NCBI RefSeq assembly: GCF_003367705.1
Contig: NZ_CP031425.1
Span: forward strand, 1,612,001-1,676,000
DNA: 64,000 bases
Source of the DNA: Microbacterium foliorum
GTDB lineage: Bacteria; Actinomycetota; Actinomycetes; Actinomycetales; Microbacteriaceae
Direction of reading: 5' to 3'
In this document: one piece after another, positions 14,637 through 54,101 of the stretch
Position numbering within the stretch: position 1 is the stretch's first letter
How the letters are laid out: every line of letters starts with the position of its first letter
The notes under the pieces: model-generated
The model's database searches: none
What the model saw: the letters and a program-made list of their open reading frames with translations, nothing else
Told to the model about the DNA's origin: nothing
Position numbers and translations under genes: made by a program

Positions 14637-15197
14637 GTGCGTTCCCGAATGAATGGTCCTTTCGTCCTGCCCGTCCGCGACATCGTCCGTAGACCGGGCG
14701 AGATGCGCGAGCACGAGTTCTCGGTGACCCTGAAGGACGGTTGGGGGGAGGGGATCGTGGCCTTCGAGGCCGGTTCCGAGCTCGACCTCGACGTGCGTCT
14801 GGAGTCCGTCCACGAGGGCATCCTGGTGTCGGGAACCGCCGATGCGGAGTACTCCGGCGTGTGCGGTCGCTGCCTCATCGACATCACCCGGCCCGTCGAA
14901 GTCGAGTTCCAGGAGCTTTTCGCGTATCCTGGTGAGGAAGAAACTGACTTCGAGGTTCAAGACGACCACGTGGATCTTGAAACTCTGGTCAGGGATGCTG
15001 CCGTACTGGCACTTCCTTTTCAGCCGGTGTGTCAGCCGGATTGCCCGGGTCTCGACCCGGAAACGGGCGAGAGGCTGACCGAGAGCACCGGAACGGAGCA
15101 CGCCGCTCCCATCGATCCTCGGTGGAGTGCGCTCCAGAACATCACAGACCAAGACGGCACGGAAGAATCTCGTGCCGCCGAGAAAGAAGAGAGCTAG
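14637..15197 (+). CDS. YceD family protein (DUF177), probable 23S rRNA accumulation factor
   Basis: The 186-residue protein belongs to the YceD/DUF177 family, which in bacteria is regularly encoded just before rpmF and has been linked to 23S rRNA maturation. Two Cys pairs, CGRC near residue 79 and CQPDC near residue 129, could bind zinc. The GTG start at 14637 is chosen because of the adjacent -10 hexamer; ATG 14649 is an alternative. The stop lies 2 nt before rpmF, so the two are coupled. Confidence 0.85.
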   Translation: MRSRMNGPFVLPVRDIVRRPGEMREHEFSVTLKDGWGEGIVAFEAGSELDLDVRLESVHEGILVSGTADAEYSGVCGRCLIDITRPVEVEFQELFAYPGEEETDFEVQDDHVDLETLVRDAAVLALPFQPVCQPDCPGLDPETGERLTESTGTEHAAPIDPRWSALQNITDQDGTEESRAAEKEES

Positions 15198-15426: not shown

Positions 15427-16119
15427 GTGACGAAGGTCCCTGAGGGGACGAGACATCTCCCAGAGAAGCTCCGCGTCGATATCGACGCGGAGCTTCTGGA
15501 GTTGGCTCTCACCCATCGCTCCTACGCGTACGAGCATGGGGGAATCCCTCACAACGAGCGCCTGGAGTTCCTCGGCGATTCTGTGCTCGGTCAGGCCGTC
15601 ACGGTGATGCTCTTCACCACACACCCCACGCTCGACGAGGGTGAGCTCGCCAAGCGGCGCGCCAGCGTGGTGTCGACGGTCGCCCTGGCGGAGGTCGCAC
15701 GAGCCATCGGTCTCGGCAGCCATCTGCGGCTCGGCCGAGGCGAGGAGCAGACCGGCGGACGCGACAAGGACTCGATCCTCGCCGACACCATGGAGGCTGT
15801 GATCGGGGCGACGTACCTGTCGGCCGGCCCCGACGCCGCGACCGAGCTCGTGCTGCGGTTGACGGCACCGCTGCTGGCCGATCCCGAGCGCTACGGTGCC
15901 GCGATGGACCCGAAGACGAGCCTCCAGGAACTCGCGGCTCGCGCCGGATCCACTCCGCCCGTGTACTCGGTCGAGGCGAGCGGACCCGACCATGATCGTC
16001 GTTTCCTCGCGACGGTCGTCGTCGGCGATGTCGCGATGACCGGCAAGGGCAGCAGCAAGAAGACCGCCGAGATGGCCGCGGCGCTCAGCGCGTGGCGGCT
16101 GCTCAACGAGCGTGCCTGA
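15427..16119 (+). CDS. rnc: Ribonuclease III
   Basis: RNase III cuts double-stranded RNA, including the rRNA precursor. The 230-residue protein has the signature HNERLEFLGDSVLG with the catalytic acidic residues, a second acidic cluster DTMEAVIGATYL, and a C-terminal dsRNA-binding domain ending GKGSSKKTAEMAAA. The GTG at 15427 gives the normal length, and its ribosome binding site is weak, suggesting coupling to rpmF. A 34-bp perfect palindrome lies in codons 13-24. The 3' end overlaps mutM by 8 nt. Confidence 0.94.
   Translation: MTKVPEGTRHLPEKLRVDIDAELLELALTHRSYAYEHGGIPHNERLEFLGDSVLGQAVTVMLFTTHPTLDEGELAKRRASVVSTVALAEVARAIGLGSHLRLGRGEEQTGGRDKDSILADTMEAVIGATYLSAGPDAATELVLRLTAPLLADPERYGAAMDPKTSLQELAARAGSTPPVYSVEASGPDHDRRFLATVVVGDVAMTGKGSSKKTAEMAAALSAWRLLNERA
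15464..15497. repeat. 34-bp perfect palindrome inside rnc
   Basis: AGAAGCTCCGCGTCGAT is followed directly by its exact reverse complement. In RNA it gives a stem of about 15 bp with a 4-nt loop. After a 3-nt bulge, a further CTCC (15457-15460) can pair with GGAG (15498-15501), making about 19 bp. It is a possible self-cleavage site for the enzyme this message encodes. Confidence 0.85.
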
Positions 16120-16975
16120 GCTCCCCGAGGTAGAGGTCGTCAGAGCCGGTCTCGCTCCGGCAGCGACGGGGTCGCTGATCACCGCGGTCTCGGTCCTCGA
16201 CGAGAGGGCGCTGACCCGTCACGCCGCCGGCGCGGCCGACTTCGTCTCCCGTCTCGAGGGCCGAACGTTCCGCGGAGCCGAGCGGCGGGGCAAGTTCCTC
16301 TGGCTGCCGCTCGACTCCGACGTCGATGCGGTGATCGCGCATCTCGGCATGAGCGGACAGATGCTCCTGCGTGCTCCGGATGCCGCAGCCGAACGTCATG
16401 AGCGGATCCGCATCTTCGTCGAGCATCCTCAGCACGGCGAGCTTGCGATCGTCTTCGCCGACCAACGCACCTTCGGCTCGCTCGCCGTCGATCGTCTGGT
16501 GCCGGATGGCCCGTCGCGCATCCCCACCCAGGTCGCGCACATCGCCAGGGACCCTGTCGATCCGCTGTTCCACGACGCCGAATTCATTCGCGCGCTGACA
16601 CGCCGGCGGAGTGCCGTGAAGCGGGTGCTGCTCGACCAGCAGGTCATCAGCGGGGTGGGGAACATCTACGCCGACGAATCGCTGTGGGCTGCTCGCATCC
16701 ACCCCGAGACTTCTGCCGATGCGCTCTCGACGGTGGCGGTGAAGCGGCTGCTCGCCGAGATCAGGATCGTGCTGGCGAAGGCACTCGCCGAGGGCGGGAC
16801 GAGCTTCGACGCGCAGTACGTGAACGTGAACGGCCAGGCCGGCTACTTCGCCCACTCCCTCAATGCGTACGGGCGGGGCGGCCAGCCGTGCCCACGGTGC
16901 GGCACCCTGATCGTCCGGGAGGCGTTCATGAATCGCTCGAGCCACTACTGCCCGAGGTGCCAGCGACGCCGCTGA
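16112..16975 (+). CDS. mutM: Formamidopyrimidine-DNA glycosylase
   Basis: MutM/Fpg removes 8-oxoguanine and related damage and nicks the abasic site. The 287-residue protein starts with the invariant PELPEVE (Pro2 nucleophile after Met removal). It has the helix-2-turn-helix segment QQVISGVGNIYADE and a C-terminal zinc finger CPRCG...CPRCQ. The GTG overlaps rnc by 8 nt, so it is the last gene of the yceD-rpmF-rnc-mutM unit. Confidence 0.95.
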   Translation: MPELPEVEVVRAGLAPAATGSLITAVSVLDERALTRHAAGAADFVSRLEGRTFRGAERRGKFLWLPLDSDVDAVIAHLGMSGQMLLRAPDAAAERHERIRIFVEHPQHGELAIVFADQRTFGSLAVDRLVPDGPSRIPTQVAHIARDPVDPLFHDAEFIRALTRRRSAVKRVLLDQQVISGVGNIYADESLWAARIHPETSADALSTVAVKRLLAEIRIVLAKALAEGGTSFDAQYVNVNGQAGYFAHSLNAYGRGGQPCPRCGTLIVREAFMNRSSHYCPRCQRRR

Positions 16976-20217: not shown

Positions 20218-21302
20218 GACAGGTCCTTCTTCCAGGCGCCCTCGTAGGCGATGGCGGTGAAGCCCATGGCCTCGTTGATGGCGAGCATGGGCCGGTTCTC
20301 CTCGGCGTTGTAGGTGATGATGTCCGTCGACTCCGGTGCGACGTCGATCCACGACAGCAGCGCGGCGCACTTCACCAGCTGGCCGAGACGGTGGCCACGG
20401 TGTTCTTTCAGGACGAGAGTGTCGTGCTGATGCGTCGTGCCCGTGCGGTCGGGCCCGATGCCGAGCTCGGTGAAAGCCGCCAGCGCACCCGTCTCGAGGT
20501 GCTGTGCGACCGTGACCTGGTATGTCTGGCCCATTTCGGCCAGACGAGCCTCACCCGCGATCAGGCGGTCCGCATCCCACGCCTCTTCGTCGGCTTCGAG
20601 ATCGGCCGAGGGGGCGTCGGTGGACATGCGCGACTTGAGCCATGCGTAGCCGTCCCGGTGCTCGGGTGGGGTGGGCGCCATCCACTGCCGCACTCGATAT
20701 CCCGGCGCATGAGCCTCCGCCTCCTCGAAGAGCGAGGCCGCGAGTGCGCGCGCACCGGCGGTCAGATCGAGGCGGCTCACCCGATACACCTGCTCGAGCG
20801 TGAAGCCGTGGCGCCGCAGGAACCGTGCGACATGGTCGTCCGGCACGCTTCCGAACCCGGTGCGCGCCTCCAGCCGGGCGCCGTCGCTCGCCTGCTGCTC
20901 GGTCCAGTCCTGGATGACGGTGCGACCGTGCTCGCGCACGACTGCTTCCAGATGGGGCAGGATGGCCGTCCCGATACCGCGACCCCACGCCCGTGGGTGC
21001 AGTTCGATCGAAGCGTTGGACACCTTCGACCCCTCTTCGTGAGGGATGTCGACCACTGCGCGACCGACCATCTCGCCGGAGACGCGCACGATCCACGCGA
21101 CCGTGCTCCGTTCCCTGCGGGAGCGGAGCAGAGGCAGCAGGGCCTCGGGGGTGAGGTCCTGCTCCGTGCGGCCCGTCAGCTCGCGGTACACCTCGTTGCG
21201 CACGCGGGTCAGCTCGCGGAACTCGTCCGCGTCCGCGGCATCCGCTCGTGCCGGCAGCACGAGCGGATGCAGCGTCGCGTCCTCGATCAGAGAGATGCTC
21301 AT
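20214..21302 (-). CDS. GNAT family N-acetyltransferase (tandem paralog A)
   Basis: The 362-residue protein is a double-GNAT acetyltransferase. Its N-terminal domain keeps a recognisable acetyl-CoA loop, RAWGRGIGTAILP, and its C-terminal domain has EHRGHRLGQLVK and NAEENRPMLAINEAMGF. The ATG at 21302 follows TGGAGG. It lies 14 nt after the small unknown gene and overlaps the second paralog by 4 nt. Tandem acetyltransferases of this kind can modify antibiotics or small amines, but no substrate is indicated. Confidence 0.85.
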   Translation of the reverse strand: MSISLIEDATLHPLVLPARADAADADEFRELTRVRNEVYRELTGRTEQDLTPEALLPLLRSRRERSTVAWIVRVSGEMVGRAVVDIPHEEGSKVSNASIELHPRAWGRGIGTAILPHLEAVVREHGRTVIQDWTEQQASDGARLEARTGFGSVPDDHVARFLRRHGFTLEQVYRVSRLDLTAGARALAASLFEEAEAHAPGYRVRQWMAPTPPEHRDGYAWLKSRMSTDAPSADLEADEEAWDADRLIAGEARLAEMGQTYQVTVAQHLETGALAAFTELGIGPDRTGTTHQHDTLVLKEHRGHRLGQLVKCAALLSWIDVAPESTDIITYNAEENRPMLAINEAMGFTAIAYEGAWKKDLS

Positions 21303-44860: not shown

Positions 44861-45208
44861 ATGCAGATCCTCGACGCCGTCGACGCAGCATCGCTGCGTA
44901 CCGACGTTCCCGTTTTCAACCCCGGTGACACGATCAACGTGCACGTGAACATCACCGAGGGCACCCGCTCGCGTATCCAGGTCTTCAAGGGCGTCGTCAT
45001 CGGCCGCCAGGGAGATGGCGTTCGCGAGACCTTCACCGTCCGCAAGATCAGCTTCCAGGTGGGCGTCGAGCGCACCTTCCCGGTGCACTCCCCGGTGATC
45101 GACCACATCGAGGTCGTCACCCGCGGTGACGTGCGTCGCGCGAAGCTGTACTACCTCCGCCAGCTGCGGGGCAAGAAGGCCAAGATCAAGGAGAAGCGCT
45201 TCAACTGA
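44861..45208 (+). CDS. rplS: 50S ribosomal protein L19
   Basis: The 115-residue protein has the L19 core ([61 protein letters not shown]). ATG 44861 gives the family's usual length and follows GAGAGAGAC; an upstream GTG at 44843 adds six residues. A very strong terminator follows. Confidence 0.96.
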
Positions 45209-45222
45209 CGCGCAGGTTCTCC

Positions 45223-45257
45223 ACAGCACCCCGGGACACGATGTCCCGGGGTGCTGT
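45223..45257 (+). terminator. Strong terminator after rplS
   Basis: ACAGCACCCCGGGACA (45223-45238) and TGTCCCGGGGTGCTGT (45242-45257) form a 16-bp perfect stem with a 3-nt loop, followed by GTTCT. It separates rplS from lepB. Confidence 0.85.
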
Positions 45258-45325
45258 GTTCTCCCCGGGGTGTGCGACCCTTGATACTGCCGTCTCCGAG
45301 CGGTGCGAGACAGTGAAGGAACCTG

Positions 45326-49078: not shown

Positions 49079-50259
49079 TCGACGAACTGCGCAGCGACGG
49101 GGAACTCGTCTCGGCGATGGCGGCGGTCCGCAGCGCGGCGGGCGATCTCGAGGCGCTGGCCAGGGTCGCGTGGTCCGTCGTCGCAGAACCGGGTGACGGT
49201 GTCGCGGGCGCGCTGGTTCAGGCATTGGGCGCGTCGGAGGCCCTCAGAGTCGCTCTCGATGACGGTGTCGGTCCGGTCCCCGGGCGGGGCAGGGCGGAGC
49301 TGGCCGAGGGGCGGGCACGATGGCGGGTGCGTGCAGAGGTCCGAGCGGTCGCCGCCGCTGTCCGCGCCGCGGGCGATGTGCAGGCGCGACTGCTGATACC
49401 CGGCGATCCCGAGTGGCCGCACGCGGTCGACGATCTCGGTGCGCATGCGCCGATGGTGCTCTGGGTGCGCGGCGATGCATCGCTGCTCTCCGCCGCGCCA
49501 CGCGTGGCGATCGTCGGAGCACGCGCCGCGAGCGGATACGGGGAGATGCTGGCGGGCGACTTCGCCGGGGAGCTCGCCGCCTCGGGCGCGGTCATCGTCT
49601 CCGGGGGAGCGTACGGGATCGACGGTGCCGCGCATCGTGCCGCCCTCGGCGTAGAGGGCCGCACGATCGCGTTCCTCGCCGGTGGAGTCGATCGCGCCTA
49701 TCCGCAGGGGCATCGTCAGCTGCTCCAGCGCATCGTCGCGACCGGTGCCGTGGTGAGCGAGGTCCCCTGCGGCACGGCACCGACGAAGTGGCGCTTCCTC
49801 GCGCGCAATCGCCTGATCGCCGCGCTGGCCGACGCGACCGTCGTCGTCGAGGCGGGGTGGCGCAGCGGCTCGCTCAACACTGCCGGGCATGCGGCGGCAC
49901 TGGGGCGTCCGCTGGGTGCCGTGCCGGGACCGGTGACCTCCGCGGCATCGGCGGGGTGCCACCGGCTGCTCCGTGAATACGATGCGAGATGCGTGACCAC
50001 CTCCGAGGAGATCCGGGAGCTGTGGGGCATCTCGGGGTACGTGGAGGGTTCCGCGCAGGAGGGCCCGGGTGTCGACCCCGAGCGACGGCGTCTGCGGGAT
50101 GCGCTGGGAGTGCGCACGCCGTCGACGGTCACCGAGTTGGCCCGCCGGTCGGGTCTGGCGCCCACGCGCGTGAGCGCGCTGCTCGGGCTCCTCGAACTGG
50201 AGGGCGACGCCCGTCGCGCCGACGGCGGCTGGTTGAGTGGGCACAGTGATCGACGATGA
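49075..50259 (+). CDS. dprA: DNA-processing protein DprA
   Basis: DprA loads RecA onto incoming single-stranded DNA. The 394-residue protein has the Rossmann-like core VAIVGARAASGYG, SGGAYGIDGAAHRAAL, GGVDRAYPQGH and RFLARNRLIAALADATVVVEAG, then a C-terminal winged-helix domain (about 330-390). The N-terminal 120 residues are variable. ATG 49075 overlaps comM by 4 nt. A 36-bp palindrome follows the stop. Confidence 0.94.
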   Translation: MIDELRSDGELVSAMAAVRSAAGDLEALARVAWSVVAEPGDGVAGALVQALGASEALRVALDDGVGPVPGRGRAELAEGRARWRVRAEVRAVAAAVRAAGDVQARLLIPGDPEWPHAVDDLGAHAPMVLWVRGDASLLSAAPRVAIVGARAASGYGEMLAGDFAGELAASGAVIVSGGAYGIDGAAHRAALGVEGRTIAFLAGGVDRAYPQGHRQLLQRIVATGAVVSEVPCGTAPTKWRFLARNRLIAALADATVVVEAGWRSGSLNTAGHAAALGRPLGAVPGPVTSAASAGCHRLLREYDARCVTTSEEIRELWGISGYVEGSAQEGPGVDPERRRLRDALGVRTPSTVTELARRSGLAPTRVSALLGLLELEGDARRADGGWLSGHSDRR

Positions 50260-50267
50260 GCCGTAGG

Positions 50268-50303
50268 CCGCCCGCCGGGCCCACCGGTGGGCCCGGCGGG
50301 CGG
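50268..50303. terminator. 36-bp perfect palindrome after dprA
   Basis: CCGCCCGCCGGGCCCACC is directly followed by its reverse complement, 8 nt after the dprA stop. In RNA it gives a stem of about 16 bp. There is no T-run. It likely ends the yraN-comM-dprA transcript. Confidence 0.65.
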
Positions 50304-54066: not shown

Positions 54067-54101
54067 GAAGGGGTTCGGATCAACGAGATCCGAACCCCTT
54101 C
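54067..54101 (+). terminator. Terminator after tsf
   Basis: GAAGGGGTTCGGATC (54067-54081) and GATCCGAACCCCTTC (54087-54101) form a 15-bp perfect stem with a 5-nt loop, followed by TTCAT. Confidence 0.85.

Follow-up and report, generated by a model that had tools for sequence, protein, structure and literature searches.

The RNase III gene (rnc) of Microbacterium foliorum carries a perfect 34-bp palindrome early in its reading frame, and the question it raises is whether this is an accident of codon choice, a signal in the DNA, or an mRNA hairpin at which RNase III could cut its own message. The gene lies in a window of 64,000 nucleotides (contig NZ_CP031425.1, positions 1,612,001 to 1,676,000), which is the whole stretch of DNA that was analysed and from whose first letter positions are counted here. 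It occupies 15427..16119 on the + strand, starts with GTG and encodes 230 aa, an intact RNase III with catalytic and dsRNA-binding domains (Pfam PF14622, PF00636 and PF00035), a score of 220.8 bits against TIGR02191 (cut-off 166.25) and a visible NERLEFLGD signature. Directly upstream is rpmF, for ribosomal protein L32 (15200..15409, + strand), and 17 nt separate its stop codon from the start of rnc; the yceD/DUF177 gene (14637..15197, + strand) precedes rpmF in the same gene run, and mutM/fpg (16112..16975, + strand) shares its first 8 nt with the end of rnc. From the computed Pfam domains, the gene order is the one that we take to be recG, coaD, yceD, rpmF, rnc and mutM.

The palindrome itself, at 15464-15497 within codons 13-24 (with the GTG at 15427 as codon 1), is as the original prediction described it: two arms of 17 nt each, 100% complementary and with a spacer of 0. 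The 5' arm, AGAAGCTCCGCGTCGAT, covers codons 13-18 (15464..15480, + strand), and the 3' arm, ATCGACGCGGAGCTTCT, covers codons 19-24 (15481..15497, + strand). Its skeleton, CTCNNNGTCGANATCGACNNNGAG, has a single site in the 3.57-Mb genome, listed on both strands since it is palindromic, and only one perfect palindrome in the window is longer (half-length 18, against 17 here; the third has 9). As RNA, the region is predicted to fold into a 15-bp stem closed by the tetraloop AUAU (15479..15482, + strand), followed outwards by a 3-nt bulge, 4 bp of CUCC/GGAG and then 2 + 3 further pairs. The extension of the palindrome by CTCC (15457..15460, + strand) and GGAG (15498..15501, + strand) that had been proposed is thus recovered in the predicted fold, across the bulge. 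The predicted energy is -59.9 kcal/mol (z -5.69), with 0 of 200 shuffles as low, and the hairpin starts 37 nt past the first base of the start codon. An intrinsic terminator was considered and rejected: the stem is followed by GGAGTTGGCTCTC, with no T-run, and the reading frame continues. A comparison of the rnc hairpin with the Rfam families gave only chance-level matches (23.4 bits, against a gathering score of 99).

For the encoded peptide EKLRVDIDAELL and the codon usage of Microbacterium rnc, the probability of 17 of 17 pairs arising by chance is 2.4e-4, and that of all 15 stem pairs is 8.7e-4. The peptide alone, though, yields a mean of 12.6 of 17 pairs under a synonymous-codon null, and because it is so palindrome-prone the single-genome probability is weak when taken alone. 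The earlier statement that chance is unlikely under amino-acid constraint therefore stands as to the p value of the full palindrome, and is a moderate argument as far as one genome goes. In our reading of the alignments, it is the comparative evidence, not the single-genome probability, that is the strong part of the case.

The comparison within the genus used 199 rnc rows labelled Microbacterium or belonging to the window's genus, named contigs included, of which 176 are distinct. Two rows were dropped before these counts and the 117-segment count given below: L050, whose N-terminal part is unalignable, and L071, which NCBI labels Microbacterium and which yet has another register. Rows not so labelled (e.g. 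L016, L027, L046, L060) stand outside the Microbacterium counts, though their stems look alike. The 149 genomes of the genus gave 147 matches; 145 of these loci were used, and those of G124 and G055, which are partial, were left out. All 176 distinct rows keep at least 12 of the 15 stem pairs, and 151 of them keep 14 or 15. The mean of 14.28 pairs compares with 11.23 +/- 0.07 under the synonymous-codon null, and 157 of the 176 rows exceed their own 95% level of that null. When centres were scanned along rnc in 122 genus rows (the remainder once identical rows common to the named contigs were collapsed), the hairpin centre gave 14.3 of 15 pairs and the runner-up 10.1, with positions counted from the conserved ALTH motif as a landmark, not from an alignment. 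Codon-aware folding gave a mean z of -2.84 at the site (29 rows); six control windows gave -0.19 to -0.86. A perfect palindrome of half-length at least 17, on the other hand, is found in only 22 of the 176 related genes; in 105 of them the central position is already unpaired, and the two central codons vary (GAC followed by ATC in 68, GAT and ATC in 67, GAG and ATC in 19). The predicted stem is conserved and the palindromic centre is not, as expected of a loop.

The original prediction stood or fell with pairing at synonymous sites in related genes, and that pairing persists, maintained by compensatory changes both synonymous and non-synonymous. Among 117 distinct segments, 94.8% of cells are paired, against 88.8 +/- 0.4 in shuffles, and pairing falls to 31-45% when the partner is slid by 1-3 columns. 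Cells changed on both sides number 82, against 22.8 +/- 3.4 in shuffles (0 of 500 reach 82), and the covariation score is 0.153; shuffles give 0.059 and slid versions no more than 0.076. Two of the slide measures do not single out the true register: a slide of +2 gives 71 double-changed cells, against 82 in the true register, and a slide of -2 gives 10 double-changed pairs, against 8, with pairing at 31-41% in these controls. Covariation can be followed codon by codon between codon 16 on the 5' side (15472..15474, + strand; CGC here and GGG, GGC, AGG, GGA or GAG in relatives) and codon 21 on the 3' side (15487..15489, + strand; GCG here and CCC, GCC, CCT, TCC or CTC in relatives). The two are exactly complementary in 147 of 176 rows. 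Independent columns would give an expected 60.3 such rows, and the residues together with codon usage 22.3. The forms are GGG/CCC (G/P) in 83 rows, CGC/GCG (R/A) in 33 and GGC/GCC (G/A) in 21, with AGG/CCT (R/P) in 6, GGA/TCC (G/S) in 3 and GAG/CTC (E/L) in 1; of the remainder, 4 rows pair via G.U and 25 are not fully paired, 17 of these being GGA/CCC. Judged by these counts, the bases predicted to pair change jointly even where the amino acids differ. Codon 23 (15493..15495, + strand), which faces the AAG of codon 14 (15466-15468), is the rare Leu codon CTT in 159 of 176 rows (154 with AAG opposite); in the rest of rnc, downstream, CTT accounts for 3.2% of Leu codons. Rows with CAG instead of the Lys codon have CTG for Leu (5 rows), and an unpaired AAG/CTG combination occurs in 7 rows.

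On a tree of rnc minus the hairpin, in which branch support is low, 12 changes are required to account for five codon-pair states, with 7 changes on each side of pair 7. Within Microbacterium, the supported branches provide one phylogenetically independent contrast per pair, an underpowered comparison that used 181 rows from a separate de-duplication with L071 included. Across 315 family rows, genera without the hairpin among them, none of the contrasts listed was significant; pair 7 gave 7 contrasts there, of which on average 2.0 went the same way, 0.8 the opposite way and 4.2 showed no difference.

How far the hairpin extends beyond the genus was assessed with a strict test, in which stems of score at least 13 were counted in the 100-nt bin at the rnc 5' end and in all other bins. 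Such stems occupy the 5' end in 124 of 145 loci of the window's genus, against 4 of 2068 other bins, and in 31 of 31 loci of a second group (g32), whose sequences match named Curtobacterium contigs, against 1 of 1018. The counts are 19 of 86 loci (15 of 64 genera) against 24 of 2679 bins for other Microbacteriaceae, 12 of 29 loci (6 of 22 genera) against 6 of 957 for other Micrococcales, and 61 of 79 against 14 of 3850 for the named contigs, which overlap the other groups; outside Micrococcales, this stem test gave 0 of 28 loci. The window's genus and g32 apart, 115 genomes of the family gave a match; the 86 best-scoring loci (64 genera) form the family sample, the 29 lowest-scoring matches having been left out. 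For the order and the class, the top 30 matches by score were taken out of 98 and 79, so these two samples are non-random, and one locus in each is without the landmark. A looser fold test counted loci whose lowest z in the windows at the rnc 5' end was -3 or less, using dinucleotide shuffles on 166 loci and five other window sets for comparison. It was positive in 28 of 30 loci of the genus (0-2 in the other windows), 30 of 30 of g32 (0-2), 39 of 64 of the family (1-7) and 14 of 22 of the order (0-3), and showed no excess in the class, with 3 of 20 (0-3). As both tests lack an excess outside the order, we claim no class-wide rule. Several genera, and L268 and L271 from two other families, share the Microbacterium register, the g32 register lies at about codons 2-18, and various upstream registers are used elsewhere; the codon-aware folding window of -75..0 leaves the Curtobacterium-like register uncovered, with a score of only -1.02 for the group there. 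On these predictions, strong stems are clustered at the rnc 5' end in many Micrococcales, at differing registers.

Two observations on individual loci can be added. In L233, L300, L301, L313 and L288, which belong to several other Microbacteriaceae genera, a GGCCC or AGCCC that overlaps or immediately precedes a GTG-type start region is predicted, by eye, to pair with a GGGC in the codons for D-R-A-D-L or its equivalent; folds of this kind may enclose the rnc start codon. L027, from a contig titled Stenotrophomonas maltophilia, has a Microbacterium-type rnc with 78% identity, and the record is probably contaminated or mislabelled.

Outside the order, a Streptomyces-like genus is an exception. 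At the equivalent rnc codons it has an interrupted and irregular hairpin, some 24 bp long, whose 14 successive core pairs are present in 30 of 30 distinct sequences and whose two innermost pairs are present in 22 and 24 of the 30 (codon-aware z -3.11). It spans the codons for LEGRLGYxLESALLV, from which the Microbacterium site is shifted by about one codon according to a hand alignment, and its stem contains GAA and CTT codons, presumably rare ones in that genus. In the same genes (L349-L352, L403-L431) the next window, +45..+120, has a mean z of -2.16, and more than one structured element may be present in Streptomyces-like rnc.

Self-cleavage of rnc elsewhere, Streptomyces included, had been invoked in the original prediction, and it is indeed reported. 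The available text on S. coelicolor describes RNase III as cutting its own polycistronic transcript once in the rnc cistron, at a site in a stem-loop, and once upstream (PMC10126417). This AbsB system resembles the present case as an actinomycete one with a polycistronic rnc transcript and one reported self-cleavage stem-loop inside rnc, and differs in its second reported site, upstream of rnc; the Streptomyces-like stem is also longer and interrupted, unlike that of Microbacterium. In S. aureus, the corresponding excerpt has RNase III cutting its own coding sequence in a stem-loop said to be conserved among staphylococci (PMC3386247). The likeness here is a self-cleavage stem-loop within the rnc coding sequence, whereas the S. 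aureus structure is a long irregular helix with a one-sided cut at U+296 and that of Microbacterium a short regular stem at codons 13-24 (PMC3386247). The leader hairpin of E. coli rnc-era is likewise described, in part of a further source, as a structure in RNase III's own message at which the enzyme cuts and destabilises it (PMC8708148), but that site is in the 5' untranslated region and the Microbacterium hairpin is coding. For S. venezuelae, an excerpt reports that the rnc transcript is up in an RNase J mutant, and its authors suggest that internal cleavage by RNase III precedes. A limited literature search returned, in the titles and abstract openings of the matches listed, no prior description of an rnc hairpin in Microbacterium or other Micrococcales; within that search the function is of a known kind, and the covarying residues and the shifting site look new. 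The primary paper on autoregulation of AbsB (RNase III) in S. coelicolor is reportedly that of Xu et al. 2008.

The interpretation that we favour, and hold to be likely, makes the palindrome the local form of an mRNA hairpin under selection, a dual-coding self-target of RNase III that provides negative feedback. That the RNA structure exists is well supported by the comparisons, and of the self-target claim in the original prediction the structure, the kept pairing and the 5' clustering hold, while binding, putative cleavage and decay at the hairpin are what we infer. A cut in the stem would take away the first part of the rnc reading frame; the rnc portion of the transcript would then decay and the level of RNase III would fall, and with the upstream rpmF message spared, the outcome would be negative feedback. 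Because RNase III would read a double-stranded shape, not a fixed sequence, the site should be free to drift and to be re-sited in the 5' part of the gene, which matches the pattern seen. A stem at the rnc start that appears constrained in shape, free in sequence and movable, together with the self-cleavage reported elsewhere, is the reason for favouring feedback; an uninterrupted stem of 15 bp is short for an RNase III substrate and counts against it. On the wider proposal we are evenly divided, namely that the self-target hairpin at the rnc start is a recurrent, mobile Micrococcales element, its function kept while it is re-sited within the first codons, with the RNA stem and not the protein dictating, wherever the two arms both lie in coding sequence, the paired replacements at residues 16/21 in the N-terminal part of RNase III (R/A, G/P, G/A, R/P, G/S, E/L).

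The main rival also assumes a selected mRNA structure, here acting without RNase III: the stem would slow early elongation or lower ribosome loading, and RNase III would be kept low relative to L32. Structure early in a coding sequence can lower expression, the distance of 37 nt from the start codon fits this, and so do the other genera (L233, L300, L301, L313) in which the GTG/ATG start region is predicted, by eye, to fold onto later codons. Nevertheless, the Microbacterium stem is beyond the usual initiation footprint, there is no obvious need for it to be uninterrupted, and such stems are seldom found in flanking genes, and we regard a brake on translation as unlikely. Constitutive processing by RNase III at the stem, parting the rpmF mRNA from that of rnc with no feedback, strikes us as more doubtful still. 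It would suit the position of rpmF, directly upstream and 17 nt away, and the available excerpts have RNase III cutting between rpsO and pnp in E. coli (PMC8708148) and acting on the rpsO-pnp operon in S. coelicolor (PMC10126417); the site, however, is inside rnc and not between genes, so that every cut would destroy rnc, and an enzyme-dependent cut of the enzyme's own message would be feedback in effect.

A DNA element, whether an operator dyad or a cruciform, would account for a perfect DNA palindrome in the M. foliorum genome, and the wobble on the sense strand (31 G.U cells and 20 A.C) is not decisive for RNA over DNA and is compatible with such a reading. We consider it very improbable all the same, as the bases change while staying complementary (six codon-pair forms), which a sequence-specific protein would not allow, and the operator dyad was set aside given the lack of a fixed half-site sequence, the single copy of the motif in the genome, a centre that is not kept and a register that shifts between lineages. 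Hardly credible, finally, is a by-product of the peptide K-L-G-V-x-I-D-P-E-L being encoded by palindrome-prone codons: random synonymous codons still give about 11 of 15 pairs, but the synonymous-codon null contradicts it with an observed excess that averages about 3 pairs per gene across the 176 rows, the rare CTT is kept, codon choice tracks the opposite codon and residues covary, and the codon nulls (synonymous redraws and codon-aware folding) rule out chance or peptide by-product.

If the hairpin is indeed a self-target of RNase III with negative feedback, stem-breaking synonymous changes should raise RNase III. A few model species are known to autoregulate this enzyme, at sites that differ. 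To these, the comparison of about two hundred Microbacterium genes and about eighty other Micrococcales genera would add a stem under selection inside the gene. The comparative data give a base-by-base test of which pairs are important and could predict sites in further actinobacteria. RNA pairing, not protein contact, probably links the two covarying residues, which would be a trap for covariation-based contact methods.

The window holds other hairpins as well. The longest palindrome, a perfect one of 36 bp at 50268-50303 (half-length 18, longer than that of rnc), lies 8 nt past a + strand ORF ending at 50259 and is possibly a terminator-type structure. At 45222-45258 and 54067-54101, just past + strand ORFs ending at 45208 and 54059, are two further perfect stems (17 and 15 bp); they are as strong on one strand as on the other and are likely terminators. 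A second early-CDS hairpin, with a stem score of 15.5, is present at 21234-21274 on the - strand, at about codons 10-23 of another coding sequence, which starts with the ATG at 21302 (- strand), is preceded by GGAGG and looks acetyltransferase-like by eye.
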